NCBI RefSeq assembly: GCF_014269025.2 | Contig: NZ_CP077094.1 | Span: forward strand, 3,286,001 to 3,350,000 | Direction of reading: 5' to 3' | DNA length: 64,000 nucleotides | DNA from: Pseudomonas promysalinigenes | GTDB lineage: Bacteria; Pseudomonadota; Gammaproteobacteria; Pseudomonadales; Pseudomonadaceae | Shown: positions 16,019 to 46,797 of the stretch, one piece after another | Position numbering within the stretch: position 1 is the first letter of the stretch | Layout: each line of letters begins with the position of its first letter | Notes under the pieces: generated by a model | The model's database searches: none | The model's input: the letters and a program-made list of their open reading frames with translations, nothing else | What the model was told of the DNA's origin: nothing | Made by a program: the position numbers and the translations under genes

Positions 16019-17593
16019 TCAGGGGTATTCGAGCAACAAACGTTTCTTATCAATCTTACCTACGGCGGTCAGCGGCAGTTGGTCCATCAATACGACTTCA
16101 TCGGGGTACTTGAAGTCAGCAAGCCCCAACCCTTTTAGATAGTCGCAAACATCGCGCCGCGATGGTCCGGGGCCAATAGGTCGGATGAAGTAAACCACCC
16201 GCTCACCCAGCGTACGATCCTCTATCCCAACCACTGCGCATTCACCCACTCGTGACCAGTCGAGCATCAGTTTTTCCATGTCCGACGGCGAGTACTTTTC
16301 GCCAGCCCGGTTAATCTGCTCCTTGGCTCGTCCAACCACCGTGACATTGCCAGCCTGGTCGACACGCACTATATCGCCAGTACGGTAGAAACCCTCGTCA
16401 TCGAATGCCGCCGCATTGATTTCTGGCCTCGCATGATAACCGCGAATGGTGTAGGGGCCGCGCACATGAAGTTCGCCGGCTTCGCCAAGCGCAACCTGCT
16501 GCCCGCCCTCCCCGACGACGCGAATTTCATCGAACACCGATAATGGGCGCCCCTGGGTATTCACTTTCGAATCTTCCGAGTCCTCGGCACGATTGAAGCA
16601 GAGCAAGCCTTCGGCCATGCCATAGATATGCTGAAGTTCACAACCGAGCAAGGCCTTGAGACGTCGTGCTGACTCTTTGGAAAAACGGGCCGCTCCCACC
16701 TGCACCAGCTCTAGAGCGTCGAACGACAAGTCATCGAGCTCTAGGTACTCAATCATAATCTCGGCAATCGACGGCACCAGCGATGTGACGGTGATGCGTT
16801 GCTCAATCAGCAGTTCACATAAACGCATGATATCCGGCTGGGGCAGCATGTGAACAAAGCCTCCCACCGACAGCACGCCGAGAACGCCCGGGCAGCCCAA
16901 AGCAAAATTATGAGCAACCGGCACTACGCACAGGTAGCGCGTTTGCGCATTCAAGCCACACGCCTCAGCCATGGCGGTGACGTTATAGGTGTAGTCGGCA
17001 TGGGTGCGAGGAATCAGCTTGGGTACTTGGGTCGTGCCACCGGATAAGAGCAGGAAAGCCACATCGTCCGGCGCAGCTGAATGCGCCGCCAAGGTGACAG
17101 GCGCTTGCCAGGTCGCCTCCTCAAGCGTATCCAGATAGATGACGCCAGTTGGCGCCATACCTTGTCCGACCAGCGCCTGCGCCAGCACCTCATAGCGAAA
17201 ACCTGCCAACTCACTGCAAGTGATGTACATCGTGGCCCGCGCAGCCTCTTGTAACCCCAGCAATTCATACTGCCGGTGCCCAGGTAGCGCCAGTATTGCC
17301 ACACCTCCCAATTTCATCACTGCAAAAAGCGCGACGCAGAAACCGCAGCTGTTTGGCAGCTGCAGGATCACCTTATCGTCGGCGACCAGCCCCCGAGCTT
17401 TTAGCAGGCTCGCCAGCGCCGTGGAGCGCTGGTCTAGCTGGCGGTAGGTCAACCGCTCGCAGTCGTCTTGGAGCGCCGTTCGCTCGCCATACTGCACCGC
17501 CCATTTTCCCAAGCAATCGAGCAAGGTGCTCGACTGCAGCGCGCCGCTTTCCAGGTATCGCTCAAAGGAGGTCGGATCGATATGCGCTTTCAT
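16019..17593 (-). CDS. Salicylate-AMP ligase (promysalin-type cluster)
   Basis: 524 residues, an aryl-acid adenylating enzyme of the DhbE/EntE/PchD class. Domains: N-terminal ANL core with P-loop LLLSGGTTQVPK (181-192), then the hinge and C-terminal lid with GRAKEQINRAGEKYSP and the catalytic Lys near the end (VGKIDKK). Aligning by eye to DhbE, the pocket has N229, F230, C234 and L331 where DhbE has Asn, Tyr, Ser240 and Val337. The Ser-to-Cys and Val-to-Leu changes are those described for salicylate rather than dihydroxybenzoate enzymes. It should activate the salicylate made by the two chorismate-derived enzymes in this operon. It is the last gene of the minus-strand operon, and its ATG overlaps the stop of the preceding gene. 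Confidence 0.88.
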   Translation of the reverse strand: MKAHIDPTSFERYLESGALQSSTLLDCLGKWAVQYGERTALQDDCERLTYRQLDQRSTALASLLKARGLVADDKVILQLPNSCGFCVALFAVMKLGGVAILALPGHRQYELLGLQEAARATMYITCSELAGFRYEVLAQALVGQGMAPTGVIYLDTLEEATWQAPVTLAAHSAAPDDVAFLLLSGGTTQVPKLIPRTHADYTYNVTAMAEACGLNAQTRYLCVVPVAHNFALGCPGVLGVLSVGGFVHMLPQPDIMRLCELLIEQRITVTSLVPSIAEIMIEYLELDDLSFDALELVQVGAARFSKESARRLKALLGCELQHIYGMAEGLLCFNRAEDSEDSKVNTQGRPLSVFDEIRVVGEGGQQVALGEAGELHVRGPYTIRGYHARPEINAAAFDDEGFYRTGDIVRVDQAGNVTVVGRAKEQINRAGEKYSPSDMEKLMLDWSRVGECAVVGIEDRTLGERVVYFIRPIGPGPSRRDVCDYLKGLGLADFKYPDEVVLMDQLPLTAVGKIDKKRLLLEYP

Positions 17594-18855
17594 ACATGAA
17601 GCTCCTTGAGAAACGCCGCCTTAAACCGCTGCAGATGCTCCAGCTCGAGATTGACCTTCACGGTCATCAGCCCGGCACCAGAGAGACATGGAAAGAATTG
17701 CACGAAACGCATCGGATCATGCAGAGGAGAATCGACATGCACAGGCCCACCCGCCCCGAGGTCAAAACGCTGACAAGGCATGCCGGTGAGATTGTTAAAC
17801 AGGACCCCGTTGCCGAAGAAACTTTCATACAAGGGAGACAGAAGATATCGACCCTTCTCTGCGCCGTCGGCCACCGCGCAAATGGCTTGCAGTTCGGCGT
17901 GCAAGGTTTCACAGTCCATCACACGCTCACCCACCGCTTGGCGCACAAGCCCCGCAATTGCCGGCAAGCTCATCTCGCGCAGCAGCATAGCTCTGACCTT
18001 AACGGTTGGGTAACACAGCAGATTACCCATCCTGCCCGCGCTTACGCCCATCAACAGGCGCGCATCATAGACTGGATAGAGAACTACGTCCTGCTGATCC
18101 GGCATGATGTCGGTGGTAATGATGAGGCGCCAGATGCAACTTATCAGCAAGTCATCACGCATGAACCCATGGTAATCACAGCCTCCAAGCAACCGCTCGA
18201 TATTTTCTTTGGTCAGGGTGAAAGCCGCTTCAGCAAAGCGGGCCAGAACCTGCTCGTGCGCCGGGCGCTGCCAGCGATCCACCAGCGCATGCCCAGGCAT
18301 AGGCCCGGCTACGGCATCCAATGGAGTAAAATCCGGTGCATCGATCTGTTCGCTTCGAGCGGTTGCAAATTGGGCTATGCAAGCCAGAAACTCGAAGAAT
18401 GTTGTACCGTCGCTCAATCCGTGCCAGACGCTAAAGCCTACTACTGTGGCATCTTCGAACAGGCTCAGGCGGATCTGCAACAAAGGCTGACTAAGGCTGG
18501 TTCTGGACAAGCGATGCCGTTCGCGCCATGTCCTGTCGCAAAAGGGGTCCAACCCGCGGTAATCCCCTTGCAACACGGTTAGCGGCAGGCGCAGCGTGTG
18601 CCGGCTAATTTCCAGGCGCACCCCCTGGTTGTCACCGGTAGCAACCAGCCCTTGCGGCGTAGTTTGCTTGCGACCGGCGAAGTACGGATTCACATCAAGC
18701 GCTGAGGCCAAGTGCGTGGCAAACGCCTGCACATCCAGCGGGTAGTCATACACTAGCAGGTAGTCCGCCCAGGATTCGACCATCTTGTCGATTCCACTCA
18801 GAGGCCAAGAGGGCAGGCAGCGCTTGCCACGGACATTAATCAGCTCCAGGCTCAT
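17590..18855 (-). CDS. BAHD/condensation-like acyltransferase (promysalin-type cluster)
   Basis: 421 residues. The key motif is H-G-L-S-D-G at 145-150 (HxxxDG), the acyl-transfer catalytic motif of CoA-dependent acyltransferases and NRPS condensation domains. A D-L-G-A-G-G-P stretch at about 365-371 sits where BAHD enzymes carry D-F-G-W-G. It is a stand-alone protein rather than a module. Inference: it joins an acyl thioester to the 2-hydroxyl of the fatty chain (the ester of promysalin) or salicylate to the prolyl nitrogen. It is the only condensation-type enzyme in the cluster, although both bonds must be made. It overlaps both neighbours by ATGA. Confidence 0.72.
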   Translation of the reverse strand: MSLELINVRGKRCLPSWPLSGIDKMVESWADYLLVYDYPLDVQAFATHLASALDVNPYFAGRKQTTPQGLVATGDNQGVRLEISRHTLRLPLTVLQGDYRGLDPFCDRTWRERHRLSRTSLSQPLLQIRLSLFEDATVVGFSVWHGLSDGTTFFEFLACIAQFATARSEQIDAPDFTPLDAVAGPMPGHALVDRWQRPAHEQVLARFAEAAFTLTKENIERLLGGCDYHGFMRDDLLISCIWRLIITTDIMPDQQDVVLYPVYDARLLMGVSAGRMGNLLCYPTVKVRAMLLREMSLPAIAGLVRQAVGERVMDCETLHAELQAICAVADGAEKGRYLLSPLYESFFGNGVLFNNLTGMPCQRFDLGAGGPVHVDSPLHDPMRFVQFFPCLSGAGLMTVKVNLELEHLQRFKAAFLKELHV

Positions 18856-20048
18856 TGGCTACACCCTTGCTCAGGCGCGGAAAATACCAGCGCTACGTTC
18901 TGGCCGCCAAATCCGAACGAGTTCGACAACACATGATTAAGCCCCACTCCCTGGTGGCACTGGGAGGCAATTCGGATATTCTGGTTATCCAGACTGCCGT
19001 CGTAGTTCAAAGTCGGGGTCACCACCTGATGCATCAAGCTGAGCACCGACACCACAGCTTCCACCGCCCCGGCGGCGTGCACGGTGTGGCCCAGCATAGA
19101 TTTGACAGAGGTAACCCACGGCTGGTGTGGGAACAGTTCGGCGATCACCTGTGCTTCCATCCGGTCATTTTCAGGCGTACTCGTGCCGTGGGCATTCACG
19201 CAGTCCACTTGGCCAGGTTGCAATCGTGCTGACTCCACCGCCAGGCGCATGCAGTCACGCATGCCAGCGCCATTGGGATCCCCCTTGGTACGGTGGAAGT
19301 TGTCGGTAGTACTCGCGCAGCCGCTGAACCGAGCCAACACCCTCGCGCCCCTGGCTTTGGCACTGGCAACGCTTTCCAAGACCAAGCATGCCCCAGCCTC
19401 GCCGATCACAAACCCGTCACGATCCGCGCTGAAAGGTCGACAGGCGGTATGCGGCGAGTCATTGCGAGTCGAAAGGGCAGACAGATTGTTGAACTTGCTG
19501 ACGGTTTCGTCATAGATGGAGCTATCCGATGCTGCCACGATCACACGTTCCGCCAGTCCGTTGGCAATCGCCTCGTAGCCCAGCTGTAGGGCAGACGCCG
19601 AAGAAGCACAGGCTGTTGCTACGACGGTGGGGTATTCCCCCAGACTGTATGTGCTGACCAGCTCGCTACCCAGTGCCTCCTCCGAGGAAAAGGCGAAAAA
19701 CGCATTGTCGGCGCGCACCTGGGTGGCATCTCGCAGGCGTTCATACCAGTAATACATGCCGCTGGGCACACTGTAATAAAGGCGATCGTAGCTCGCGGCC
19801 GGGCACACAGCAGTCGCCTCGGCGATGACTTCTCGCAGGTACGTTTCAATGACCACACGCGGGTTACGCTGCGACTCAAAACGCTCGTCTACGGCGGCGA
19901 AACGGGTGCGGATAGCGCCAGGCGCGAGCCGCGCCGAAGCTTTGAAGTTGGAGCTTCCAGCTTGAAGGGCCTGCCAGTTGGATTCGACGCCCTGGCCTAG
20001 AGACGTACTCAAGCCCAACCCAGTTACAACGACATGTTGCTTTTGCAT
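18852..20048 (-). CDS. Beta-ketoacyl-ACP synthase, FabF-like (promysalin-type cluster)
   Basis: 398 residues, a complete ketosynthase. The nucleophile is Cys147 in TACASSASAL; the His and Lys of the triad region are H287 (NAHGTSTPEND), K316 and H321 (SVKSMLGHTVHAAGA). The C-terminal NSFGFGGQN glycine motif is present. It probably extends or supplies the C14 chain on a dedicated carrier. It is related to but divergent from housekeeping FabF. The ATG at 20048 lies 13 bp after the A-T protein gene, whose stop is at 20062. Confidence 0.88.
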   Translation of the reverse strand: MQKQHVVVTGLGLSTSLGQGVESNWQALQAGSSNFKASARLAPGAIRTRFAAVDERFESQRNPRVVIETYLREVIAEATAVCPAASYDRLYYSVPSGMYYWYERLRDATQVRADNAFFAFSSEEALGSELVSTYSLGEYPTVVATACASSASALQLGYEAIANGLAERVIVAASDSSIYDETVSKFNNLSALSTRNDSPHTACRPFSADRDGFVIGEAGACLVLESVASAKARGARVLARFSGCASTTDNFHRTKGDPNGAGMRDCMRLAVESARLQPGQVDCVNAHGTSTPENDRMEAQVIAELFPHQPWVTSVKSMLGHTVHAAGAVEAVVSVLSLMHQVVTPTLNYDGSLDNQNIRIASQCHQGVGLNHVLSNSFGFGGQNVALVFSAPEQGCSQ

Positions 20049-20061
20049 CTGTGCCTCGGCA

Positions 20062-21843
20062 TCAAAGGAAGTGGGCGACCCGTGCGATGGTCGGTTGCTG
20101 TAGAAACACGCTCATGTCCAGCTGAACACCCAGCTCACGCTCGACCAACTGGACGAAGCGTGTGGCCAGCAACGAGTTACCGCCGCTTTCAAAAAAGTTC
20201 ATATGGGGCCCAGTTACGCTCACCTTGAGCAAGCGAGAGAAAATTGCCGCGACCCTGGCCTGAGCATCGGACAGCTGCGCTACCACACCAGCAGACGCTT
20301 CGACCATAGCTGCCAGCGCGCGCTGATCAACTTTGCCATTGGTAGTCAATGGCAAGCGTTCGAGCACATACGCCCGCTGCGGCCGCATGAACGCAGGCAA
20401 CTGCTCAACCCAAGGCGCCAGGCGCTCAAGGGCCGCCTGCTGCCCTTCTGTCGAGTCCTGATACAACAGGAACGCCACCAGCATGCGTCCATCCACGTTC
20501 TCGCTCAGCGCGTGCGCCAGCACGATGGCTTCGCGCACGGCCGGGTCTTTTTTCAGACAGGCTTCGATTTCGGCCAGCTCGACACGATGTCCATTGAGTT
20601 TCACCTGGGTGTCTAAGCGCCCGTGATAGCGCAACAAGCCCTCCTCCCCTCGCACTACCCGGTCCCCGGTTCGATACAGACGCAACGATTCGCCTTGTGG
20701 CGAGCACCATGTAGGAAAACGCTTGGCGGTTTCCTCATCGCGCTGGAAATATCCGTTGGCCAGACAGGGCCCGGCAAGGCACAACTCCCCTTCTTCACCG
20801 TCAGCCACTGGCCGCAGCTGTTCGTCGAGGATGAACGCGCGCACGTTAGCAATCGGCAGGCCGATGGGCACCCGCACAGGCCATTCGCTGAGGGGACGCT
20901 CGCTGGTGTAGCTGGTCACGACATGAGTTTCAGTTGGGCCGTAGTGGTTGACCAGCACACAGCCACAGGCCTGCAACCAGCTAATGATCTGCGGCGTCAG
21001 TTGCAATGCCTCCCCTGCTGATACCACCTGGCGCAGGCAAAGTGTCTCACCGCGCTGACGCTCGTGTTCGATCGCAAGCGTCTGCAGCACCGAGTAAGGC
21101 AGGAAACAACGCTGCACACCGTTGTCACCCAGGAACCGATACAACCGTGAGAGATCCTGGCGCACATCGGCATCTACAAGGTGCATCTCACTGCCGCTCA
21201 CCACCGCGCTCAAAACCTCTTGAACCGACACATCGAAACCCACCGAAGCAAACAGCAGGGTTTTCAGCGGCTGCGCGAAGGCGCCTGCGCTTTCGAGCTG
21301 GTAATCGATTAAATTCACCAGCGCTCGGCGTGTCATTTCCACACCCTTTGGCTGCCCGGTCGAACCCGAGGTATACAGAAGGTAAGCTGGCGCATGAGCA
21401 TCGAAGTGCGGAGATGGGCAAGGGTCGAACGGCGCCGTCGATGTTCTGTCAATGCGCCAGAAGCGCCGAACGCCCGATGCCAGCAAGGCCGCATCGGCAT
21501 CGGCGTCAATCAGTACGCAGGCCATCTGGCTGTCCTCGATCATAAAGGCACGCCTGGCCCAAGGCAGCGATGTATCCAGCGGGATGTAGACCATGCCGGC
21601 GCGAAGCACGGCAAGCATGCCCACTACGCCCAGCCCGCGGTCGTTCACCTGTACACCAACGCAGCGCGGGCCGCTGCCGAGGATAGCTACCAATTCGGCC
21701 GCCAGCCGCTCCACACGTGTATCCAGGTCGTTGTAAGTAAGGCGCCAGCACGCACTGACCAGCGCCAGGGCAAGCGGCGTACGCCTGGCTTGGGTACGCA
21801 GATAATCTGACAAGTCGCGACCAGCCTCATAATCATTGCTCAT
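20062..21843 (-). CDS. NRPS-like prolyl adenylation-thiolation didomain protein
   Basis: 593 residues from the ATG at 21843, chosen because AAGGGAAG sits just upstream; a frame starting at 21873 is possible. Adenylation domain 1 to about 500 (A3 YTSGSTGQPKG; A4 with D204; A5 NHYGPTET; A7/A8 YRTGD and GRLDTQVKLNGHRVE; A10 TTNGKVDQ), then a carrier domain with S557 in GGNSLL. Reading the pocket against GrsA gives D-V-Q-F-V-A-H-V-V, a proline code. It should load L-proline on its own carrier domain, the precursor of the pyrroline carboxylate. There is no condensation or thioesterase domain. Confidence 0.88.
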   Translation of the reverse strand: MSNDYEAGRDLSDYLRTQARRTPLALALVSACWRLTYNDLDTRVERLAAELVAILGSGPRCVGVQVNDRGLGVVGMLAVLRAGMVYIPLDTSLPWARRAFMIEDSQMACVLIDADADAALLASGVRRFWRIDRTSTAPFDPCPSPHFDAHAPAYLLYTSGSTGQPKGVEMTRRALVNLIDYQLESAGAFAQPLKTLLFASVGFDVSVQEVLSAVVSGSEMHLVDADVRQDLSRLYRFLGDNGVQRCFLPYSVLQTLAIEHERQRGETLCLRQVVSAGEALQLTPQIISWLQACGCVLVNHYGPTETHVVTSYTSERPLSEWPVRVPIGLPIANVRAFILDEQLRPVADGEEGELCLAGPCLANGYFQRDEETAKRFPTWCSPQGESLRLYRTGDRVVRGEEGLLRYHGRLDTQVKLNGHRVELAEIEACLKKDPAVREAIVLAHALSENVDGRMLVAFLLYQDSTEGQQAALERLAPWVEQLPAFMRPQRAYVLERLPLTTNGKVDQRALAAMVEASAGVVAQLSDAQARVAAIFSRLLKVSVTGPHMNFFESGGNSLLATRFVQLVERELGVQLDMSVFLQQPTIARVAHFL

Positions 21844-21869
21844 GGGTACTTCCCTTGTATGCTCCGGCA

Positions 21870-22712
21870 TCAAGCGAACGCTTGATTCAAATGAACGGAA
21901 ACCAGGTCAATCAGGTGACGGTTATCGTGGTCCCAAGGGTGGAAATCGGCACGGTAGAAGTCTTCTATATGGGCGTTAATCGCCGCCAATAAGCCACACT
22001 CCCCTTGCAGGAACGGGCTAGTGTCGAGCCACTTGCGGGCATCGCGGGGCCGCCCGCCCTCCATCAGAAACATCTGGCAGACCGTGAAGCGAAGATTCTG
22101 CGCGAGCTGGATCACCGTGCGACGCATGATCTCGTCGAGATAGCTCTTATCGCCGACGAGCTGGCGATATACATCGAAGGCGACGGCCTTGTGCTCGATT
22201 TCCTCCACCGAGTGCCATAGCCAGAAATCACGCACCGCCGGTTTTGCCTCGGACAACCAGCCTGGCTCACTGATAAGCAGATGCGAGACGATCGCCGTAA
22301 GGTGCTCCATGCACACTGTAGTGGCCAATAGAAGGCGCGGCTCGGCGAAATCACAAAGGTACTCGTTATGATCTTTGTAGGGTGCTTCCACCTGAGCCAG
22401 GTCATAGCCGCGATGCTGGCAAACCCAGCGGTTGTACTTCACGTGTTCCTGAGTGTGGCTGGACTCCTGCTTGAAGAAGATTTTGACCTCCTCACGCAGT
22501 TGCGGATCTTCGATCGCCTCAAAATACTGACGCAGTGCCCGAATGAACATACGCTCGCCGCTGGGCAGCGGGATCGACAAAGCATTGGCGATGATCGTGC
22601 GCAAACGATCGCCACCAAACCAGTCTTCGCCAAGCGTCGTCTGAAGATCGAAAGGATAGCGGCGCACCACCATGGCGCTCGCCACAGGGAGCATTGGATT
22701 AGCTGTGTTCAT
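21870..22712 (-). CDS. Ferritin-like di-iron protein (PF10118-type 'metal-dependent hydrolase')
   Basis: 280 residues from the ATG at 22712, with GGAGG upstream. The length and pattern fit the family annotated as predicted metal-dependent hydrolase (PF10118). The sequence shows a full ferritin-like di-iron ligand set on four helices: E53, E83xxH86 (in QESSHTQEH), E136 (CMEHLT) and E171xxH174 (EEIEH). Inference: it is an O2-dependent oxidase, desaturase or hydroxylase rather than a hydrolase. It is the best candidate in the cluster for desaturating the prolyl group, because no flavin acyl-CoA-dehydrogenase-like enzyme is present; the alternative is hydroxylation of the acyl chain. It sits between the A-T gene and the isochorismate synthase gene. 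Confidence 0.75.
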   Translation of the reverse strand: MNTANPMLPVASAMVVRRYPFDLQTTLGEDWFGGDRLRTIIANALSIPLPSGERMFIRALRQYFEAIEDPQLREEVKIFFKQESSHTQEHVKYNRWVCQHRGYDLAQVEAPYKDHNEYLCDFAEPRLLLATTVCMEHLTAIVSHLLISEPGWLSEAKPAVRDFWLWHSVEEIEHKAVAFDVYRQLVGDKSYLDEIMRRTVIQLAQNLRFTVCQMFLMEGGRPRDARKWLDTSPFLQGECGLLAAINAHIEDFYRADFHPWDHDNRHLIDLVSVHLNQAFA

Positions 22713-22749
22713 AAAAGATGGCCTCCAAACACAGGGCTCGCAACGGCGT

Positions 22750-24159
22750 TCAGACCGTGGCCACTTTAGACTCGGCTCGCAAGGCATTGAACATGCCCGA
22801 GAGCTTAAGGCAGGTTTCCTGGTACTCGAGCTCTGGCACCGAGTCAGCTACCACGCCACAACCGGCGAACAGGTAGGTGCGCGTGCCTTGCACCAGCATC
22901 GAGCGCAACGCCACGACGAAGTCACCCTCGGCGCACTCATTCATCCAGCCGAGCGGCCCGGCATACCAGCCACGATCCATGCCCTCATGTCGGCGAATGA
23001 ATGTAAGCGCCTGCTCAAGCGATGAACCAGCCACGGCGGGTGTCGGATGCAACTGCTCAATGACATCCAGCACACCAATCTTCGCTCCGATTTTTGCCTG
23101 GATCGGAGTAGACAGATGTTGCAAAGTCGGCAGCCTGCGAAGCTCGGGTACCGCCGCCGCCTGCACCGTCGCACCCAGACGCTCGAGCCCCTGTCGAATG
23201 AAGCGCACCACCAGGTCATGCTCCTGACGCTCCTTTACCGATGCCAGCAGCGCTTGGCCCAGGCTGTGATCATTCGCCTCATCGCCGCCTCGCGCTACGG
23301 TGCCGGCCAAGGCGTGGGTGCTGACCAGACCATTTTGCAGATGCGCCAAGCGCTCCGGGGTAGCACCGAGGAAACAGCTCTTGCCACGGCGAATGGCGAA
23401 TAAGTGCGCGCCGGGATTGTGCCGGCGCAGACGTTTGAGTAATGGAATCACCCCAATCGGAGCAACATGCTGGCGCAGCAAGTGCCGGGCCAACACGACT
23501 TTGTGCATCTCACCCTGGCGAATGCACTTGACGGCCTTAGCGACCGTACTCTGCCACTGCTCGCGCGATACCGAAGACTGGTCATCACCCATGGCCTCGA
23601 TCACGAACTCGCTCCGGTCGACATCCTGATCCACGAAATCGAGCAGTCGGCGTTGCTCATCGAGTAAGGCAGGCAGATCACTGTCGGCCCGCACCTGGGC
23701 CTGCAGCAACAGGTAACTGCCCACGGAGTTCTGCAGCCACTGGAGCGGATACAACGTCATTACGGCATCAGGAAAATCACGCCAGTGCGGCTGTTGAGCT
23801 CCCCCACTGTCAAACCGCGCGCCACCCATCAGCAACGGACCTGACGGCCCTTCTTGGACGGCGCTAGCCAACCATTGTCGCCAGCGCCTCGATATTCCGG
23901 ACAATGACGATGCACCTTCGTCCAGCAATTCGCGACCTTGACCTATACCGAGCAGCACGCGGTCTGGCTCGCGGGACTCAAACAACGCATAGGGCAAACC
24001 CAGCGATTCTATATTAGCTACCTGCGCCAGAGCGTCGAACGGCTCACATGGTAAGGCCAGGCACACCAGCACCTCTCCCCCCTCCCGGACTGCGCGGCAG
24101 CGCCCCTGCTCGAGCATCGCCCACCAGCGCATCCATTGCCCAGGCTCTGGACGGCTCAT
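22750..24159 (-). CDS. Isochorismate synthase (salicylate branch, PchA-like)
   Basis: 469 residues from the ATG at 24159, which overlaps the stop of the lyase gene by ATGA. It converts chorismate to isochorismate. The C-terminal chorismate-binding domain is clear: FLGATPERLAHLQ, STHALAGTVARGGD, HPTPAVAG and the final YAGPLGW...ALRSMLV...GCGVVADS blocks. The N-terminal third is variable, as in PchA, EntC and MenF. It works with the pyruvate lyase encoded immediately upstream to give salicylate. Confidence 0.93.
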   Translation of the reverse strand: MSRPEPGQWMRWWAMLEQGRCRAVREGGEVLVCLALPCEPFDALAQVANIESLGLPYALFESREPDRVLLGIGQGRELLDEGASSLSGISRRWRQWLASAVQEGPSGPLLMGGARFDSGGAQQPHWRDFPDAVMTLYPLQWLQNSVGSYLLLQAQVRADSDLPALLDEQRRLLDFVDQDVDRSEFVIEAMGDDQSSVSREQWQSTVAKAVKCIRQGEMHKVVLARHLLRQHVAPIGVIPLLKRLRRHNPGAHLFAIRRGKSCFLGATPERLAHLQNGLVSTHALAGTVARGGDEANDHSLGQALLASVKERQEHDLVVRFIRQGLERLGATVQAAAVPELRRLPTLQHLSTPIQAKIGAKIGVLDVIEQLHPTPAVAGSSLEQALTFIRRHEGMDRGWYAGPLGWMNECAEGDFVVALRSMLVQGTRTYLFAGCGVVADSVPELEYQETCLKLSGMFNALRAESKVATV

Positions 24160-24467
24160 GGCGCAGTACCCTGTTGTTGGATAGACCAATAATCCATCTG
24201 CTGGGCTATGTACCAGTCGATGATGCCGGCGAACAGCTTCTCTATGTAATCGGCATCCAGCCCAGCCTGGCAAGCCCACTCCCTACGCTGGGGTAACATG
24301 CGCGCTACGCGTTCCGGCGCGGGTATGCTCTGCAGGCTGGGTTTGAACTGTGCCGCGGACTTGACGTACAGCATGCGCATCCCCATGCACTCGATGATCC
24401 GCTGGTCGAGATGGTCGATGGCTTCGCGGACGTCGTTGAGGCCTGTGACCTCGTTTGGTGCTTTCAT
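24156..24467 (-). CDS. Isochorismate pyruvate lyase (PchB-like)
   Basis: 103 residues with an AroQ-type chorismate-mutase helical fold: DVREAIDHLDQRIIECMGMRMLYVKSAAQFK carries the conserved Arg and Lys residues, and ERVARMLPQRREWACQAGLD is the second active-site helix. It eliminates pyruvate from isochorismate to release salicylate. AAGGAAG precedes the ATG. The gene order lyase-synthase with a stop/start overlap is the pchBA arrangement. Confidence 0.92.
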   Translation of the reverse strand: MKAPNEVTGLNDVREAIDHLDQRIIECMGMRMLYVKSAAQFKPSLQSIPAPERVARMLPQRREWACQAGLDADYIEKLFAGIIDWYIAQQMDYWSIQQQGTAP

Positions 24468-24533
24468 TGATTCAATCTTCCTTGATGACGACCCGTCAGT
24501 AGGGGCGGGCTAATAGAGACGCTGCTCAAACTC

Positions 24534-25526
24534 TTACCGGTAGAACGCGCTGGCCCACTGACGAAAATGACGTATGGGCCCATCCACGCGACTCAGTGGT
24601 GGGCGTTCGATATAGATCTTGTTTTCCCATATGGCGAAGTCCTTGGCCAACTCACCGGTCAGCCGCGGCAGGAGGTAGCTCAGCAGCATGCGGTCCTTGC
24701 GCCGATCACCGCTCGACTTGACGGAAACCGTCATGCGGATGTCAATACGCCCTTCTGCCACCGGTGTGACATACAGGAAGCTGCGAAACTGCAGCTTGTC
24801 TTGATCGATGACCACCTGAACCTGATGAAGGCCCAACGCGTTGAGCACTACGCTGGCCTTGGCGATTGAAGGCTTGCCGCCCAGGTCGCTGACACTGAGA
24901 GATGTCCAGCTCGCATGCGCGCCCTCATAGCGCAGATCAAGCAAATCACCGACAGCTTGTGCTCCATGCACAGTTGTGAAATGCGCGACATCGATACCAT
25001 TTTCCGCGATGTCTTGGACATGCGCCCGCAGATTCCAGTAACAATCCTCACGATGAATTGGAGCAGTCCATCCGTCCTGCTCAATTTCCACGGGTGTCCA
25101 CAGCGCAGGCTGATCATTTGGATCATGCCAGGCTTGCAACATGCCGCCCCGTACTACCGTAGGCCATTGGCGCAAACCGACTTTCATCGGCGTGTCAACA
25201 AACGGAATCTTGCTGCATCGCCCATGGCCGTCGTACTCCCAGCCGTGAAACGGGCAACGCAGATGCTCGCCTTCGACAATCCCGCCGTAACCAAGATGCG
25301 CCCCCAGGTGCGGGCAGTGCGCGTCGTACACGGCAACTTCGCCGGATTCGGTGCGGACCACCACGATGTCGCGGTCACACAGCCGGGCCGGTCTGACTGA
25401 CGCCAACGCCAGGTCTTCAACCCAGGCAACCGCATACCAGCCCCTGGGTGAAGCGCTGAACGGAAAACGCGCACCGGCCCTGCCCGCTTGCAGGTCAGTC
25501 TTTGAATACTCAACTTGTGTGTTCAT
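24534..25526 (-). CDS. Rieske non-haem iron oxygenase A (promysalin-type cluster)
   Basis: 330 residues from the ATG at 25526 (M-N-T-Q-V-E-Y-S-K), 7 bp after the preceding gene, with TGAGG upstream. The Rieske [2Fe-2S] ligands are C71-x-H73 and C91-x2-H94 (CPHLGAHLG and CPFHGWEYDG). The mononuclear iron ligands are D179, H182 and H187 (IDVAHFTTVHG), or the equivalent downstream carboxylate. The single-component layout resembles KshA/PrnD-type oxygenases, which need an external ferredoxin reductase; none is encoded in the cluster. The likely role is a hydroxylation of the C14 chain (C-2 or C-8). Confidence 0.88.
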   Translation of the reverse strand: MNTQVEYSKTDLQAGRAGARFPFSASPRGWYAVAWVEDLALASVRPARLCDRDIVVVRTESGEVAVYDAHCPHLGAHLGYGGIVEGEHLRCPFHGWEYDGHGRCSKIPFVDTPMKVGLRQWPTVVRGGMLQAWHDPNDQPALWTPVEIEQDGWTAPIHREDCYWNLRAHVQDIAENGIDVAHFTTVHGAQAVGDLLDLRYEGAHASWTSLSVSDLGGKPSIAKASVVLNALGLHQVQVVIDQDKLQFRSFLYVTPVAEGRIDIRMTVSVKSSGDRRKDRMLLSYLLPRLTGELAKDFAIWENKIYIERPPLSRVDGPIRHFRQWASAFYR

Positions 25527-25533
25527 CTGCGCC

Positions 25534-26520
25534 TCAGAAGACATCCAGCACGAAGGATTCGTAACGGTCACGGGCAATCTGCGTCAGCAGCAATGCTCGC
25601 CTATGTCCACCGGCAGCCTGACGCCGCAGCGCCTGTGCAGCGAGATAGATCTGAGCCGGTAAGGTAGCTTCATGCAGTTGCCCCATCATCTGCTGCACAT
25701 CCAACACTGGCACCGGAAGATTTAACGCTGCCAGCCAACCCTGTCCCGCAGCAAAGCCATGCACCGCGACAAGCGTGGCTTCACACTCTTGCAAGCGATC
25801 CCTCACCTGCGCCTGAGTCACCGGACCACCACGGCGCAAGCTCGCTAGTGCTGAAGAGGGTTCGGTATCAAGCAGCATGCAGCTGGCTGCGGTGCCGAAG
25901 ACCCCAAGCCGATCGCTATCCGGCCCTGCCAAGTACTCGTCATGAATGCGCTGATCGCCATTGAAGACGCCCCCAGCAAGAACCCGTGACGTGCGCCCGG
26001 CTCCCAGTTTCTCCAGTGCATGGATGAACGCCTGTACAGAGGCCGCAGCTTCCCCCACGAATGAGAGGCTCTCGCCCTTGAGTCCTAGCAGGATCGCGAT
26101 GTTGGCGGCATACAGGTTGGGCAACTCTGCTAGGAAATGAGTAGGCCTGAGGCGAGCAAGCTCCTGGTTGATATCGAGCGTTCCCGCGGCGGCCGCAGCG
26201 AAAATAGAGTTGTCGACAGCGTCATTGCGCTCACCGATTTTGGCAGCCATGTAGAGGTCACAAGTAGCGCGACTTTCGGCGCTCAGCCCGGCCTCTTCCA
26301 GCGCCAGGCCCGCTGCGCAGACGAGCATTTTCTGACCTGCACCCATGGCGTTTATGTCTCGCACCTTGGTGACGAAGCGATCCAGCGCAACTGAAGGTAG
26401 CGGAACTTTACCCCTCACCGCCGCAGCCGACGGCTTGGGCAATGGCTGCTCATCCCCCAGCGCGAAAGCGCCATCACTGTGAACAATCCCTATGCCCTTG
26501 ATATAGACCGTTTCGATCAT
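25534..26520 (-). CDS. Ketosynthase-like protein lacking the catalytic Cys
   Basis: 328 residues from the ATG at 26520, which overlaps the dehydratase stop by ATGA. The N-terminal half looks like a thiolase-fold ketosynthase (VYIKGIGIV; INAMGAGQKMLVCAAGLALEEAGL). At the nucleophile position it reads F-V-G-E-A-A-A-S, with E157 where a Cys is expected, and no clear HGT or GH motif follows. It is shorter than a true ketosynthase. It could act like a chain-length factor with the active ketosynthase of this operon, or be a scaffold. I cannot assign a catalytic activity. Confidence 0.75.
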   Translation of the reverse strand: MIETVYIKGIGIVHSDGAFALGDEQPLPKPSAAAVRGKVPLPSVALDRFVTKVRDINAMGAGQKMLVCAAGLALEEAGLSAESRATCDLYMAAKIGERNDAVDNSIFAAAAAGTLDINQELARLRPTHFLAELPNLYAANIAILLGLKGESLSFVGEAAASVQAFIHALEKLGAGRTSRVLAGGVFNGDQRIHDEYLAGPDSDRLGVFGTAASCMLLDTEPSSALASLRRGGPVTQAQVRDRLQECEATLVAVHGFAAGQGWLAALNLPVPVLDVQQMMGQLHEATLPAQIYLAAQALRRQAAGGHRRALLLTQIARDRYESFVLDVF

Positions 26521-26969
26521 CGGTGCCTCCCTTGGCAGTCCAGCACGGTATGCTGCACCGCCTGGCGTAGAACGTCGTTGTCGAACGGCATCAACCGCAA
26601 CATCCATTGCGCACGCGCTACCACGTCGGTGCTCTTTAGTACACCTTCGCAAACCAAATAGCTGTCGGCCCGATGGGTGATACGGACATCCGCCTGGAGC
26701 TGCTCGCCGGGTGCCACGAAACCATTGAACTTGGCTTGTTTGATATTGACCAGAAACGCCATCTTGTCGAAGTCCGAGGACAACATATAAAGAAAGCCTC
26801 CGGCCTGCGCCATCAATTCGACCATCAATACACCCGGTAATATAGGACGCCCCGGAAAGTGCCCATCAAATACCGGGGCTTGTTCCGGTACCTGACTGAT
26901 GCATTGGATGGTCTGCCAGGGTTCAATGGCGACGACGCCATCAATTAGCAGATTCTTTTCGATATTCAT
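26517..26969 (-). CDS. 3-hydroxyacyl-ACP dehydratase, FabZ-like hotdog
   Basis: 150 residues. The FabZ/FabA signature GHFPGRPILPGVLMVELMAQ supplies the catalytic H37 and E51. It should dehydrate a 3-hydroxyacyl-ACP intermediate during assembly of the fatty chain. It overlaps the ACP gene before it and the ketosynthase-like gene after it by ATGA each, so the three are translated together. Confidence 0.87.
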   Translation of the reverse strand: MNIEKNLLIDGVVAIEPWQTIQCISQVPEQAPVFDGHFPGRPILPGVLMVELMAQAGGFLYMLSSDFDKMAFLVNIKQAKFNGFVAPGEQLQADVRITHRADSYLVCEGVLKSTDVVARAQWMLRLMPFDNDVLRQAVQHTVLDCQGRHR

Positions 26970-27268
26970 GCACTGACAGGCGCACCCTGCAGAACCTGAT
27001 AAATGGCCGCAACGAAATCTTTCATCTTGTGGTTATTCTTTTCACCATTCGGCGCGCTCGCCGACCACGCTTCGAGTGGGAATTGAATTTTATACGTATC
27101 TTCAATTTCGAACACGATGTCCAGAAAATCGACACTATCGATACCCAACTCCTGGGTCAGGCTCAGCTCTCCGTCGATGCGATCAATGCCCAAGTCTGTG
27201 ACATCACAATATTGCATGATGATTTTTTCCACAGTTTGATACACGTCCTGCAGGCTCAATTCGCTCAT
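26966..27268 (-). CDS. Acyl carrier protein (type II, cluster-specific)
   Basis: 100 residues from the ATG at 27268, preceded by GGAAGGAA. Phosphopantetheine attachment site S45 in LGIDSVDFLDIVFEIE. It resembles fatty-acid ACPs more than peptidyl carriers and carries a C-terminal extension. It is probably the carrier for the myristoyl intermediate handled by the ketosynthase pair and dehydratase. Confidence 0.9.
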   Translation of the reverse strand: MSELSLQDVYQTVEKIIMQYCDVTDLGIDRIDGELSLTQELGIDSVDFLDIVFEIEDTYKIQFPLEAWSASAPNGEKNNHKMKDFVAAIYQVLQGAPVSA

Positions 27269-27287
27269 ATATTCCTTCCCTGTGTGA

Positions 27288-28064
27288 TTACGCGTTATCG
27301 TGCTGAATAAATTCAATCAATCGCTCGATTACCCCGGCATTACGAAGTGCGCCCGAGTGCCCCAACCCTTGTGTTTCTATGTATTGCGCTTGCGGCCACA
27401 CGTAGCGCAACCCACGTGCACCGGCCTCGATTTCGATGATCGGGTCATCTACATCATGGTGGATCAATGTTGGCAGAGTCATTGACTTGCACAGCTCAAT
27501 CGGTGAGTAGGCCTGACGCCACCCTGCACCAAATGCTTGATCAATCGCGCTAGCCAGTTCATCCAAGGCCACGCCCTGATCCTGTTGCAACTGCTGAAAC
27601 CGCTGGAACACGTACTCCTGAGTCGCAGCAGGCGACAAGCAGATGAATCGCTTCGCACCCAGCCCGGCATTGAGTGCGCGCATGACCCAACTGCATGCCA
27701 TTGAATGCGCAACCACTGCGGCCGGCTCGGCGTAACGCCGGGTCTGCAATAGTGCCTCCCAGATGAACACAGACGGAATGAAACGTCCGTGAGGGTCATG
27801 GGAGGGAATATCGACAGCGAGCACACCTCGGCCCGCCGCAAGCAACCCCTTGATGAGTGCGCCAAATTGTGCGGCATTGCCGTTGGAGCCATGCACGCAC
27901 AGCACTGGAGCGCTGCCCTCCCAATGGTGACAGCGCACCTCAAGATCACCCCATTCGAAGCTCTCGCAGCTGGCCTGAGCGAAGGTCGCTTGATAGATCC
28001 TGGGCACCCGCAAGGGCCCAAGGCGAGCAATGGCCTTAGTAGCGCGGTCAGGCATCCGAACCAT
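27288..28064 (-). CDS. Alpha/beta hydrolase (thioesterase-like)
   Basis: 258 residues. Oxyanion motif VHGSNGNA (58-65), nucleophile S121 in VAHSMACSW (an A-H-S-M-A variant of GxSxG), acid in HHDVDDPI (about 204-207) and H236 in GLGHSG complete a catalytic triad. Start at 28064, overlapping the preceding carrier gene; an ATG three codons later (28055) is also possible. Likely role: release or transfer of an acyl group from one of the carriers, for example freeing the fatty acid for amidation. Confidence 0.82.
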   Translation of the reverse strand: MVRMPDRATKAIARLGPLRVPRIYQATFAQASCESFEWGDLEVRCHHWEGSAPVLCVHGSNGNAAQFGALIKGLLAAGRGVLAVDIPSHDPHGRFIPSVFIWEALLQTRRYAEPAAVVAHSMACSWVMRALNAGLGAKRFICLSPAATQEYVFQRFQQLQQDQGVALDELASAIDQAFGAGWRQAYSPIELCKSMTLPTLIHHDVDDPIIEIEAGARGLRYVWPQAQYIETQGLGHSGALRNAGVIERLIEFIQHDNA

Positions 28065-28296
28065 CCTTTCGTGCCGCCAGGATGTAGCGAGCCTGCTGTT
28101 CGATTGATTGTAATTGGGGGTATTGGCTGATTTCGAGCCTGACCCCGAATACCTTCATACCCCGCATAAATAACCGCATCAAAGCCAATGAACTTCCACC
28201 GGCTTCGTGGAAGGGCGTAGTATCCTCAAACTGCTCGCCTGGCAACAAAGCCTGCCACAACTCCCGCAATTGGATACGCACTGTCTGATCCTTCAA
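28048..28296 (-). CDS. Stand-alone carrier protein with TTG start
   Basis: 82 residues with GGSSLALM (S36 is the expected phosphopantetheine site), closer to peptidyl/aryl carriers than to fatty-acid ACPs. The start codon is TTG at 28296, supported by GGGAGAG seven bases upstream; no ATG or GTG fits the frame better. It is the first gene of the minus-strand operon. A salicyl carrier role is a reasonable inference, since the salicylate-AMP ligase has no fused carrier. Confidence 0.82.
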   Translation of the reverse strand: MKDQTVRIQLRELWQALLPGEQFEDTTPFHEAGGSSLALMRLFMRGMKVFGVRLEISQYPQLQSIEQQARYILAARKDGSDA

Positions 28297-28309
28297 GAAA
28301 TTACTCTCC

Positions 28310-28327
28310 CTTAGACTAAGGTCTAAG
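28310..28327 (-). promoter_or_regulatory. Hairpin adjoining the Shine-Dalgarno sequence of the first operon gene
   Basis: Perfect stem CTTAGAC (28310-28316) - TAAG - GTCTAAG (28321-28327). On the minus-strand transcript it ends directly at the GGGAGAG ribosome binding site of the TTG-started carrier gene. Such placement suits translational control (RNA structure or RsmA/CsrA-type protein), but the loop itself has no GGA. Confidence 0.5.
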
Positions 28328-28333
28328 CACCAT

Positions 28334-28373
28334 CATTTGAATGACCTATACCTCAAACGCATGCATTCAAATG
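28334..28373. repeat. Inverted repeat pair, candidate operator
   Basis: CATTTGAATG (28334-28343) and its exact reverse complement CATTCAAATG (28364-28373), spaced 30 bp start to start, which is about three helical turns. Each arm is itself a CATT-NN-AATG near-palindrome. This suits cooperative binding of a dimeric regulator between the divergent operons. Confidence 0.5.
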
Positions 28374-28699
28374 GATAATTTAATAATGTGCTTATTCGCA
28401 AACGAGCGATCTCATGCTCCGACATCTTCATGATCCTTGTGTCGCCCGCGATCAAAACCGCAATTTCATCGTCCGGAAATGGCATTAATCATCTCCATTT
28501 AGCTCACCAGAGGAGCACCACAAATGTCAACTAAACAATAAAAAAATCAGATAGGCGCGTGTTCTTTACTGCACTTGCACTCTTTCAAAATTTGTTCTAG
28601 GCTCGCACTCCCAAACATCGAAAACTGTTCGAACTTCGCCCCACCCGCTTATACGCCACGTGGCTCAGCGGCTTCGAATTTAAGAAGGAAGTACACGCC

Positions 28700-29698
28700 A
28701 TGGAGTTTGGCTGGAGCCGCATTTCGCGCTTTTTTCACCCCGTTCATGCCGAACAGGACATCCGCGACAAACCGGTTCAGGTGCAAGTGGGCGGCTTGAA
28801 GATCGTGCTGTTCCGCAGCAAGGACAGGCAGATCGTCGCCATGCCCGACCGTTGTCCTCACCGGTTCACGCCATTGTCGATGGGACGTGTCGATGAGAAT
28901 GGCAACATCGAGTGCCCTTACCATGGGTGGAGCTTTGATGTGCAGGGCCAGGGCTACATTCCGCATCAGCCAACCTCCCGCTCCTGCCGTATCGAAACCC
29001 TAAAAACCATGGTTCGCAATGGAGTTGTCTGGGTGGGCGGTCAACAGGCCGAACCCCTTGAGGAGTTCGCCGATCCGGAATACACGTTTCTTGGACAGTT
29101 CCCCGTCGTGTTCGACTGCCCGCTGCACGTTGCACTGGACAACTTCTCCGAAGACGAACATTTTCCTTATGTCCATCAAACCTTCGGCTGGGACCGTGAA
29201 GGCGCTAAGGATGTCGAGTACGAGTTCAGCCAGGATGAGCGCAGTACGCTGAACTACTATCGGGGCCCAATCCGTAAGTTTCCCTTGATGTTTCTAACTG
29301 GGGTCAAGGCAGGGGACATTTCGCACAACCGTTTCCACACGCTGTTCAATCCAGTGCGTAGCACCTACGAATCCTGGGTGACCTGCCAAGCCCGGCACGT
29401 CAACATCGGTGGACACATCAAGACCACCATTTTCTTCGTGCCTAATGCCGACAACCGCACCACGCTGTACAGCTTCGTGCACTCGCGTGCTAGCGATGCC
29501 AAATCGGCCTTCTTCCAGAAGCACATGCGCCGCTTCATCTTGCGTTTCATCAAAAAAGAGTTTGAAGCCGACGGCTCATTTTCGAGCCAACTTGCCCACT
29601 TACCCTACGCGCTGAACGGTGCCCGCCTGGGCAAATACGACAAGCCGCTGGTCGTTCATCGCCGCATGCTGGAACGCATATACCTCGGTGAGCCCTGA
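28700..29698 (+). CDS. Rieske non-haem iron oxygenase B (promysalin-type cluster)
   Basis: 332 residues. Rieske ligands C52-x-H54 and C72-x2-H75 (CPHRFTP and CPYHGWSFD). The mononuclear iron site lies in NFSEDEHFPYVH (H154, H159, with an upstream acidic residue). It is only distantly similar to the other Rieske protein of the cluster and fits the phenylpropionate-dioxygenase-like group. AAGAAGGA precedes the ATG. With the amidotransferase it forms a separate plus-strand operon, which suggests both act late on the fatty chain; the product needs hydroxyls at C-2 and C-8. Confidence 0.88.
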   Translation: MEFGWSRISRFFHPVHAEQDIRDKPVQVQVGGLKIVLFRSKDRQIVAMPDRCPHRFTPLSMGRVDENGNIECPYHGWSFDVQGQGYIPHQPTSRSCRIETLKTMVRNGVVWVGGQQAEPLEEFADPEYTFLGQFPVVFDCPLHVALDNFSEDEHFPYVHQTFGWDREGAKDVEYEFSQDERSTLNYYRGPIRKFPLMFLTGVKAGDISHNRFHTLFNPVRSTYESWVTCQARHVNIGGHIKTTIFFVPNADNRTTLYSFVHSRASDAKSAFFQKHMRRFILRFIKKEFEADGSFSSQLAHLPYALNGARLGKYDKPLVVHRRMLERIYLGEP

Positions 29699-29735
29699 AC
29701 TTCGGCTTTTCAGTCATTCTAAGAAGGAGCACAGG

Positions 29736-31724
29736 ATGTGCGGAATTTTCGCCTCTATCGGCTACGCTACCGATAGCGTGGACCTCGACAGCGCCTTAGC
29801 CGCGTTGATCCACCGTGGGCCCGACGGCAACAATGGCTATCGCAACGCAGAAAATGGTGTGGTGCTCGGCCATACCCGTCTGTCGGTCATCGACATCGCC
29901 AGCGGGGAGCAGCCGCTGTACAGCCATAACCAGGACACGGTGCTCATCTGCAACGGCGAACTGTATGACCACCAGCGATTGCGTGCCGACCTGATGAACG
30001 AAGGCTTCAGCTTCCAAACGGGCTCAGACTCAGAACTGATACTGGCCCTATACGAACGTGACGGCCTGGACTTCACAAGCCACTTACGCGGAGAGTTCGC
30101 CTTCATCCTACTCGACTGCCGACGCCAACACGTGATCGCCTGCCGCGATCGCTTTGGCATCAAACCCTTGTTCATGCACCAGCACCCCAAGCACCCCAGC
30201 CAATTGCTGTTTGCCAGCGAAGCCAAGGCCTTGTTCGCCAGTGGCCTGGCCAAGCCGTCGCTGGACCCGGTGCGCTTGCGCGACATGCTCAGCTTTGTGC
30301 CGATGGACAGCGTGTTTGAACATGTCAGCGCAGTCCCCCCTGCGCATCTAATGCAGATCGATTTACGTACTGGCGAGCAGATTCTGACCCCGTATTGGTC
30401 CATGGACCTGTTACCCCAACCACTGGCAGACGGCACTACGGAGGCCGACCTGAAACAGAGCCTGCGCAATCACCTGGAGGAAGCCGTCGCCCTGCGTCTG
30501 CAGGCAGATGTCCCTGTGGGGGTTTACCTGAGTGGCGGGCTGGATTCCACCGCAGTGGCTGCCGTGGCGGCAAAGCTGAGCGCCACGCCCATCGAAACAT
30601 TCAGCATTTCGTTCAGTGACCATGCCGACTTCGATGAGGCATTGATCGCACAACGCACAGCTCAGCACCTGGGGGCGCGACTGCACAAGGTTACCTGTCA
30701 GTCCGATGATCTGCTGACCCACCTTGAAGAAAGTTTATGGTTCAGCGAAACACCTGCGGTCAACTACAACGGAGTCGGCAAGTTTCTGCTTTCGAAACTG
30801 GCAAGACAACATGTCACCTGCGTGCTTACCGGCGAAGGCGCTGACGAAGGGCTGCTCGGTTATGGCTATTTCAAAGCCAATGGGCAAGGTCTATCCAGCC
30901 ATGCATACGGTCGTACCCAGGACCCCTTGAGTGCGGCTGGCGGGTCGAGCGTTCGGCAATTGCATGAAACGCTAGGTTTCATCCCGCAACCAGAAATGCG
31001 CGCACTGTTCAAACCGGCCGCACAGCGCATACTAACTCGGCTGTTCCATCGTCAGCACCGTCAGAAGGTGCAGGCGACGTCTCCCCTTCAGCGCTTGAGC
31101 CAGCGCCTCGACCGCGAGGAGCTCGACCGTCTGCCCCTGCTGAACAAGCTGCAAACTTTCAGCATCCGAGGATTACTCAGCCCGTTCATTCTGGCTAACC
31201 TTGGCGACCGTCAGGAAATGGCACACTCGATCGAAGGGCGCACACCTTTTCTCGACCACAAGCTCTTCGAGTGGCTGGCAAAACTGCCAAACGAGTGGAA
31301 ATTACGTGGGAACGTGGAAAAGTACCTGCTGCGCGAAGCAGTGAAAGACATCATTCCCGAAGAAGTATATAGCCGTCGAAAATGGCCGTTCATCGCTCCG
31401 CCATTGTGGGTGACTAAACGCTCAGGAAAGTTCATGACCAAGCTCATCGATACCTATTTGAGCAGTACGGCGCTGCGCGCCTCGGGCATGTTCTCCAATG
31501 CCTCGGTGCAGTGCATGCTGCTGGCGGTGAGAACCTCTTGGCTTCCCGATCGCCTGCGAGAAAAACTCAACAACTTGCTGCTGTTCATACTGACAGTGCA
31601 AATCATCGAGAAAGACTTCGTGCAACAGTTTGAGCACAATCTGTGCAAGTATCGCCAGCAGACTCAGGCTGCCTACCACGGGATCAAAGCCGCAGCCAAG
31701 CAAGCCGAAGCACAGCCTGGATAG
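29736..31724 (+). CDS. AsnB-type glutamine amidotransferase (promysalin-type cluster)
   Basis: 662 residues from the ATG at 29736 so that Cys2 of M-C-G-I-F is the glutaminase nucleophile; AAGGAG lies upstream. The N-terminal Ntn-hydrolase domain (IHRGPDGNN; CNGELYDHQ) is followed by the synthetase domain with PPi-loop SGGLDSTAVAAVAA and a GEGADEGLLGYGYF block. Homologues outside asparagine synthesis amidate carboxylates in natural products. Here the expected reaction is conversion of the dihydroxymyristate carboxylate to the terminal carboxamide. It lies 37 bp after the Rieske gene and is the right-hand edge of the island. Confidence 0.88.
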   Translation: MCGIFASIGYATDSVDLDSALAALIHRGPDGNNGYRNAENGVVLGHTRLSVIDIASGEQPLYSHNQDTVLICNGELYDHQRLRADLMNEGFSFQTGSDSELILALYERDGLDFTSHLRGEFAFILLDCRRQHVIACRDRFGIKPLFMHQHPKHPSQLLFASEAKALFASGLAKPSLDPVRLRDMLSFVPMDSVFEHVSAVPPAHLMQIDLRTGEQILTPYWSMDLLPQPLADGTTEADLKQSLRNHLEEAVALRLQADVPVGVYLSGGLDSTAVAAVAAKLSATPIETFSISFSDHADFDEALIAQRTAQHLGARLHKVTCQSDDLLTHLEESLWFSETPAVNYNGVGKFLLSKLARQHVTCVLTGEGADEGLLGYGYFKANGQGLSSHAYGRTQDPLSAAGGSSVRQLHETLGFIPQPEMRALFKPAAQRILTRLFHRQHRQKVQATSPLQRLSQRLDREELDRLPLLNKLQTFSIRGLLSPFILANLGDRQEMAHSIEGRTPFLDHKLFEWLAKLPNEWKLRGNVEKYLLREAVKDIIPEEVYSRRKWPFIAPPLWVTKRSGKFMTKLIDTYLSSTALRASGMFSNASVQCMLLAVRTSWLPDRLREKLNNLLLFILTVQIIEKDFVQQFEHNLCKYRQQTQAAYHGIKAAAKQAEAQPG

Positions 31725-32351: not shown

Positions 32352-32381
32352 GTTTATCCTTGTTGTCGAAGATCCAGCCTC

Positions 32382-32636: not shown

Positions 32637-32760
32637 GGCTAAATCAGGACTCCCTGGAACAGAACGGGACGAACGCCCCTGGATAGTAACGGCTCAAACA
32701 TGCGTTTGAAATTGTCAGGCCGATGAAATCTGCAGTGACTCGGCAGTCAGTTGCGGCCGC

Positions 32761-33210: not shown

Positions 33211-33277
33211 GGACTTCGGCAGGCAGGCGAGAATGGAAAGTGTCTATGCTCTCCGTTCCGCCCTTCGCTGGCAAGCC

Positions 33278-46794: not shown

Positions 46795-46797
46795 ACC

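Follow-up and report, generated by a model that had tools for sequence, protein, structure and literature searches.

A promysalin-type gene cluster next to the succinate dehydrogenase operon of Pseudomonas promysalinigenes and a recombinant-looking sdhCD allele that may protect the producer's target

The rifamycin cluster of Amycolatopsis lies beside rpoB and is accompanied by a resistant form of that target. Fungi that resist succinate dehydrogenase inhibitor (SDHI) fungicides are known to carry changes in the enzyme's quinone pocket, located in SdhC and SdhD; the fungal SdhC residues T79 and W80 are those we take to correspond to positions 23 and 24 of the Escherichia coli protein. Here we analyze a stretch of 64,000 nucleotides from Pseudomonas promysalinigenes (NZ_CP077094.1, positions 3,286,001–3,350,000; the whole stretch is called the window, and all positions below refer to it), in which an island of 15 genes of the promysalin type occupies 16019–31724, between gltA and a START-domain gene, with the succinate dehydrogenase operon sdhCDAB on the far side of gltA. 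Promysalin is described as a competitive inhibitor of succinate dehydrogenase that acts at the ubiquinone site (PMC10077553). As with rifamycin and rpoB, an antibiotic cluster adjoins a housekeeping gene of its own target, and as in the fungi the changes may concern the quinone pocket of succinate dehydrogenase. Unlike the rifamycin case, the Pseudomonas locus shows a recombinant-looking patch in two small membrane-anchor subunits, and a genome without the cluster shares the allele; unlike the fungal cases, which are point mutations under fungicide use, it involves a multi-residue allele that tracks a biosynthetic cluster. Our preferred explanation, which we hold to be rather probable on the sequences compared, is target-site self-resistance: an altered quinone pocket would have been inherited with the promysalin cluster. 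The cluster itself is already known, and its genomic setting beside the target genes is the new part; the promysalin literature covered, which did not extend to the original 2011 cluster paper or the 2018 target paper, makes no mention of a cluster beside sdh or of an sdhCD allele.

The features that carry this argument are the following.

13573–13941, minus strand: sdhD, with the allele type of the cluster carriers over most of its length; V79 and T80 stand beside D82/Y83
13654–14265, no strand assigned: recombinant-looking patch, from about codon 19 of sdhC to its end and from codon 1 to about codon 96 of sdhD
13935–14321, minus strand: sdhC, carrier-type allele, with V20, V37, F46 and V114 (E. 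coli numbering)
14669–15958, plus strand: gltA of native type (TIGR01798), left border of the island
31743–32351, minus strand: START-domain gene, right border of the island

Four carriers of the cluster were examined: the window, Pseudomonas sp. BP8, and 4A7 and 6C6, both labelled P. entomophila. In all four the cluster sits between gltA and the START gene, and sdhCDAB lies on the far side of gltA, divergent from it. Among 28 gltA loci that lack the cluster, 25 have the START gene next after gltA (one of the remaining three, L021, is cut short by a contig end at 3034 bases), and the START gene lies 74–213 bases after gltA in 12 of the 14 cluster-less loci of a second set. Other sequence takes the place of the START gene after gltA in G363 (L087) and G391 (L088). 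GltA, SdhA and SdhB of the window are 93–98% identical to those of the other carriers, and the cluster proteins 55–85%. The right flank (31800–35000) is less alike than the left flank in all eight genomes compared.

SdhC has a single match in the window's genome, so the sdhC described here is the working target rather than a spare. Compared in 150-base bins with G307 and G045, its neighbors in a tree of the flanking genes gltA and sdhA (the flank tree), the window is 90–99% identical over sdhB, sdhA and gltA and 77–85% identical over 13651–14250; over that same segment it is 91–94% identical to G024, a genome that lacks the cluster. At the finer scale of 30-base bins, the differences from G307 begin at 13654 and end at 14265, with 0–1 per bin just outside. 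The sdhC of BP8 is 88% identical to both the window and G024 and 79% identical to G307, the corresponding values for gltA being 93%, 93% and 95%. Low SdhC identity alone was discarded as a sign of an odd target, because more than one ordinary SdhC class exists: among the best ~150 places (396 of 398 genomes of the genus gave a match), SdhC proteins other than those of the window and G024 are 83–89% identical to the window's, and in most of 28 cluster-less P. putida-type loci the value is 77–82%. The case therefore rests on the tree, the mosaic and the signature residues.

Trees were built from 58 genomes chosen for their top gltA or SdhC scores rather than at random; the duplicates L025, L042, L043 and L047 were left out, as was L068. 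In the sdhC+sdhD tree the four carriers and G024 form one clade with support of 100/99. The flank tree places the window beside G307, G045 and G076, and G024 beside G258 (100/99). In approximately unbiased (AU) tests, the flank data reject a clade of the carriers with G024 (p = 0.0025), and the sdhCD data reject both the grouping of the window with G307, G045 and G076 (p = 2e-53) and that of G024 with G258 (p = 5e-5). The target variant is common to the producers and rare in their close relatives, and it is also present in one cluster-less genome, G024. Its occurrence in 4 of 4 carriers vs 1 of 54 others gives p = 1.2e-5 in Fisher's test, which ignores relatedness.

The same five genomes share a set of residues in both anchor subunits. 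SdhC was compared over 62 loci (duplicates included), 120 of 1745 protein matches and 20 further genomes, a selection rather than all 398. The carriers and G024 have Val20, Val37, Phe46 and Val114 (E. coli numbering); in the 172 other SdhC rows, set apart from the carriers, G024, P0011 and P0012, Val20 occurs twice, Val37 once, Val114 three times and Phe46 18 times. The only other row that combines Val20 with Val37 is P0015, which reads like the 4A7 protein, and Val20 is absent from SdhC of the 20 further genomes. In SdhD, the carriers and G024 have Val79 (0 of 54 others), Thr80 (1 of 54), Phe or Ile at position 65 (0 of 54) and Ile89 (0 of 54). The SdhC signature residues and V79 and T80 of SdhD all fall inside the patch at 13654–14265. 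Docking to a homology model of the P. aeruginosa enzyme, as reported in PMC10077553, brought promysalin next to Tyr83, Ser27 and the Ala24 backbone; the pocket there is nonpolar and made up of Ala, Leu and Ile residues. SdhC position 20 and SdhD positions 79 and 80 are sequence neighbors of these docked residues.

G024 (L028, L043 and L076) is identical to the window in SdhC over the matched part and 97% identical in SdhD. A remnant of the cluster was sought there and discarded, as blastn gave no match to the island within 16 kb around its gltA. Its best match to the AsnB-type amidotransferase of the cluster is 31%, and the BAHD-like protein, which has a match in 2 of 398 genomes, has none in G024. 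The state of G024 fits a loss of the cluster or a gain of protection alone, and it also fits the absence of any link between cluster and allele.

Under target-site self-resistance, the producer would survive its own succinate dehydrogenase inhibitor through a single sdhCD copy replaced over 13654–14265. The replacement variant would have a changed ubiquinone pocket, carrier-type SdhCD would bind promysalin less well, and the allele would be inherited or exchanged along with the cluster, which would stay beside the sdh operon. Several observations weigh against this. G024 has the carrier allele and no cluster. All three docked residues are unchanged in the carriers: Ser27 and Tyr83 are the same, and position 24 is Ala, the residue also present in the docked P. 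aeruginosa model and in the P. putida-type class. SdhB was considered as a site of resistance and discarded, since it shows no carrier-specific change vs 18 other loci. Bases 14266–14339 hardly vary, if at all, among the six genomes compared, and the sdhC-side edge of the patch may therefore only mark a conserved stretch and could lie anywhere within it; BP8 sdhD is 85% identical to the window and 86% to both G024 and G307; and the whole sdhD of 4A7 is, as DNA, 84% identical to the window vs 86% to G307. Local support for the position of the window in the flank tree is weak (87/62), and a clade of the four carriers alone is not rejected by the flank data (AU test, p = 0.113). On the tree the cluster label needs three changes, with three independent pairs when all branches are used and one on well supported branches; with at most three independent carrier lineages, no phylogenetic test can reach significance. 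Four residues divide SdhC into four types (26, 25, 5 and 2 genomes) that require seven changes on the flank tree, and the cluster-less P. putida-group genomes G133 (L019) and G322 (L030) differ in sdhCD class from most of their flank neighbors. The sdhCD class thus changes without any cluster, and swapping alone is not specific; sdhCD alleles seem to have been exchanged repeatedly in the P. putida group. Finally, four efflux genes rise with promysalin in the producing strain, according to PMC10077553, and P. putida is described as shifting flux to the glyoxylate shunt (PMC10714402), so that efflux or a metabolic bypass may suffice for protection.

These last two responses also favor an explanation by hitch-hiking, in which sdhCD moved with the cluster by homologous recombination through the flanks, the allele is not protective, and efflux or the glyoxylate bypass accounts for the producer's protection. 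The cluster lies only about 1.7 kb from the patch, and clusters in the same slot differ by 15–45% in protein sequence next to a GltA that is 98% identical, which suggests repeated exchange. What speaks against co-transfer is the DNA in between: gltA and the sdhC–gltA spacer, which separate the patch from the cluster, have a native-like sequence in the window (90–99% to G307), and BP8 shows a similar pattern (gltA 95% and sdhC 79% to G307). The presence of the allele without the cluster in G024 argues in the same direction, and we regard hitch-hiking as fairly unlikely, though the most serious of the competitors to target-site self-resistance.

The locus could also hold an ordinary known cluster that came to lie next to sdh by coincidence, in a slot that tolerates insertions, with cluster and allele shared by descent from a single ancestor. 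The failure of the flank data to reject the four-carrier clade is in keeping with this, as is the tolerance of the slot for other sequence in two of 14 loci (G363 and G391). Descent alone sits poorly with the divergence between the clusters of the window and BP8 (58–85% protein identity) next to 93–98% for GltA, SdhA and SdhB, and it leaves the sharp edges of the sdhCD patch unexplained; we consider it improbable. A different kind of doubt concerns the product, which could be a related metabolite with the same scaffold and another chain or oxidation pattern. The product is predicted here from the genes, and the biosynthetic steps are assigned by protein family, which leaves some room for such a variant; since the gene content fits promysalin throughout and the genome is most likely that of P. 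promysalinigenes, we think this very improbable. Target-site self-resistance remains the reading we prefer.

The 15 genes fill 16019–31724, 13 on the minus strand and two on the plus strand, as judged from open reading frames and from Pfam and NCBIfam profiles. The initial annotation had described a complete promysalin-type island of 15 genes at these positions, and every gene on its list was recovered here by Pfam, NCBIfam and motif evidence.

16019–17593, minus strand: salicylate-AMP ligase, EntE/DhbE-like (PF00501; TIGR02275 at 514 bits, under the 723.55 cut-off)
17590–18855, minus strand: BAHD-like acyltransferase with the HxxxDG motif as HGLSDG (PF02458 at 21.1 bits, cut-off 22.7)
18852–20048, minus strand: FabF-type ketosynthase (PF00109/PF02801) with the active Cys (TACASS) and two His motifs
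20062–21873, probable start near 21843, minus strand: prolyl adenylation-thiolation (A-T) protein (PF00501 and PF00550)
21870–22787, probable start near 22712, minus strand: PF10118 protein (218 bits)
22750–24279, probable start near 24159, minus strand: isochorismate synthase (NF005459 at 493 bits, cut-off 475)
24156–24467, minus strand: isochorismate pyruvate lyase of PchB type (NF005475 at 145 bits, cut-off 126)
24534–25577, minus strand: Rieske oxygenase of KshA_C type (PF00355, PF19298)
25534–26652, probable start near 26520, minus strand: Cys-less ketosynthase, chain-length-factor-like (PF00109), with GEAAASVQ at the position of the Cys motif
26517–26969, minus strand: FabZ-like dehydratase (PF07977)
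26966–27316, minus strand: acyl carrier protein with GIDS (PF00550 and motif)
27288–28064, minus strand: alpha/beta hydrolase (PF12697)
28048–28296, minus strand: second carrier protein with GGSS, aryl/peptidyl-carrier-like (PF00550 and motif)
28575–28603, plus strand: sigma-70-like promoter TTGCAC-N17-TAGGCT ahead of the pair formed by the second Rieske oxygenase and the amidotransferase
28700–29698, plus strand: Rieske oxygenase of VanA_C type (PF00355; PF19112 at the edge of its cut-off)
29736–31724 (open reading frame called from 29619), plus strand: AsnB-type amidotransferase (TIGR01536, over cut-off)

At several genes the called start runs into the gene upstream, and the translations suggest that the real starts are probably internal (29736 for the amidotransferase, about 24159 for isochorismate synthase and about 26520 for the Cys-less ketosynthase); the N-terminal Cys motif MCGIF of the amidotransferase is found at residue 40 of the called frame. 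Both Rieske oxygenases contain C-x-H...C-x2-H. Among solved structures, the BAHD-like family profile matches plant BAHD enzymes, for example rosmarinate synthase, and the motifs FDVSVQE and NHYGPTE of the A-T protein fit a proline-type code in a hand alignment to a template. Solved relatives of the PF10118 protein, a possible di-iron oxygenase, were sought, and none was found at E ≤ 1. In the promoter at 28575–28603, TAGGCT and the 17-base spacing are kept in all four carriers, and the first four letters of the −35 box are kept as well; the divergent spacer (28297–28699) was inspected by eye for a conserved regulator site, a possibility then discarded, the sigma-70-like promoter alone standing out. 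Among the 15, Pfam recognized nothing that would encode an exporter, a regulator or a resistance function. The ketosynthase at 18852–20048, the dehydratase at 26517–26969 and the carrier at 26966–27316 match the cispentacin NCBIfam models AmcF, AmcE and AmcB, below cut-off.

The gene content agrees with promysalin in the parts that the initial annotation had singled out: salicylate genes, a proline A-T protein, type II fatty acid synthase parts, two Rieske enzymes and an amidotransferase are all present. For the salicylate part, isochorismate synthase and the lyase exceed curated cut-offs, and the ligase is nearest, below cut-off, to 2,3-dihydroxybenzoyl-AMP synthases in its NCBIfam profile. 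As to cluster type, identification of the island as the promysalin biosynthetic cluster is nearly certain from its genes. It is alike in gene content, the level at which the two were compared, to the promysalin cluster of P. promysalinigenes (formerly P. putida) RW10S1, and it most likely belongs to that species and is perhaps that very locus. RW10S1, which produces promysalin, is described as the type strain of P. promysalinigenes, with a CP accession and 60.62% G+C (PMC8401041); the source genome of the window is a single contig of 5,046,521 bases with a sampled G+C of 60.8% (standard error 0.34, 40 samples of 20 kb), a value that agrees with 60.62% but is not precise enough to identify the strain. 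The clinical P. promysalinigenes isolate W2469 reportedly lacks the cluster (PMC13223145).

With steps assigned by protein family, chorismate would be converted through isochorismate to salicylate by isochorismate synthase and the lyase, and the ligase would activate salicylate to salicyl-AMP for loading onto a carrier, probably the GGSS protein. The A-T protein would load proline, and the two ketosynthases (one Cys-less), the dehydratase and the GIDS carrier would supply the C14 chain. Three oxidations, namely the desaturation of the ring and two chain hydroxylations, would fall to the two Rieske enzymes and the PF10118 protein, the number of oxygenase candidates being the same as that of the oxidations. 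Pyrrole pathways use a flavoprotein dehydrogenase; none of that kind is found among the 15 genes, so ring desaturation is probably due to one of the three oxygenase candidates. AsnB would form the terminal amide, and the BAHD-like enzyme may form the ester or N-acyl bond.

The clusters of BP8, 4A7 and 6C6 were found by a scan of one genome per species, which possibly did not include the window's own genome. All 15 genes are present in each, order and orientation unchanged, with proteins 55–85% identical to those of the window, and the recurrence of this set in three other genomes at such identity is more than chance. When 5.8 billion proteins were searched and 7993 candidates scored, 10 relatives of the BAHD-like protein emerged, including the window's own; the other nine are 58–75% identical. 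Within the genus, 2 of 398 genomes have a BAHD match, the window's and G344, which agrees with the 4A7 record. Carriage on plasmids was considered and discarded, as the BAHD-like protein has no tblastn match in 72,556 plasmid records. P0011 has an SdhC identical to the window's, and the BAHD homolog P0002 is named Pantoea sp. Tr-811; if both belong to one genome, as we assume, it would be a fifth carrier.

Elsewhere in the window, 44830–48213 and 62269–63990 contain a MacB-type ABC exporter together with an efflux protein of the outer membrane and, near the window end, the end of an A-T protein on the minus strand. These genes may be parts of another secondary-metabolite region.

How a producer tolerates its own inhibitor of a respiratory enzyme, and why promysalin is selective among species, looked unsettled in the literature covered, and the sequence offers an answer with named residues. 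We propose the linkage of the cluster to a target allele as a further case of an antibiotic cluster with a protected target, for which the carriers, their ordinary relatives and the cluster-less genome with the producer allele are natural test cases. A broader idea, which we put forward tentatively and rate as a little short of probable, is that the exchange of sdhCD alleles in the P. putida group is driven by natural inhibitors such as promysalin: with the cluster beside the operon, weapon and protected target would travel together, and non-producers like G024 would pick up or keep the allele alone. The arrangement also suggests a possible marker for other natural succinate dehydrogenase inhibitors, which may be recognized by clusters beside sdh or by odd sdhCD patches.

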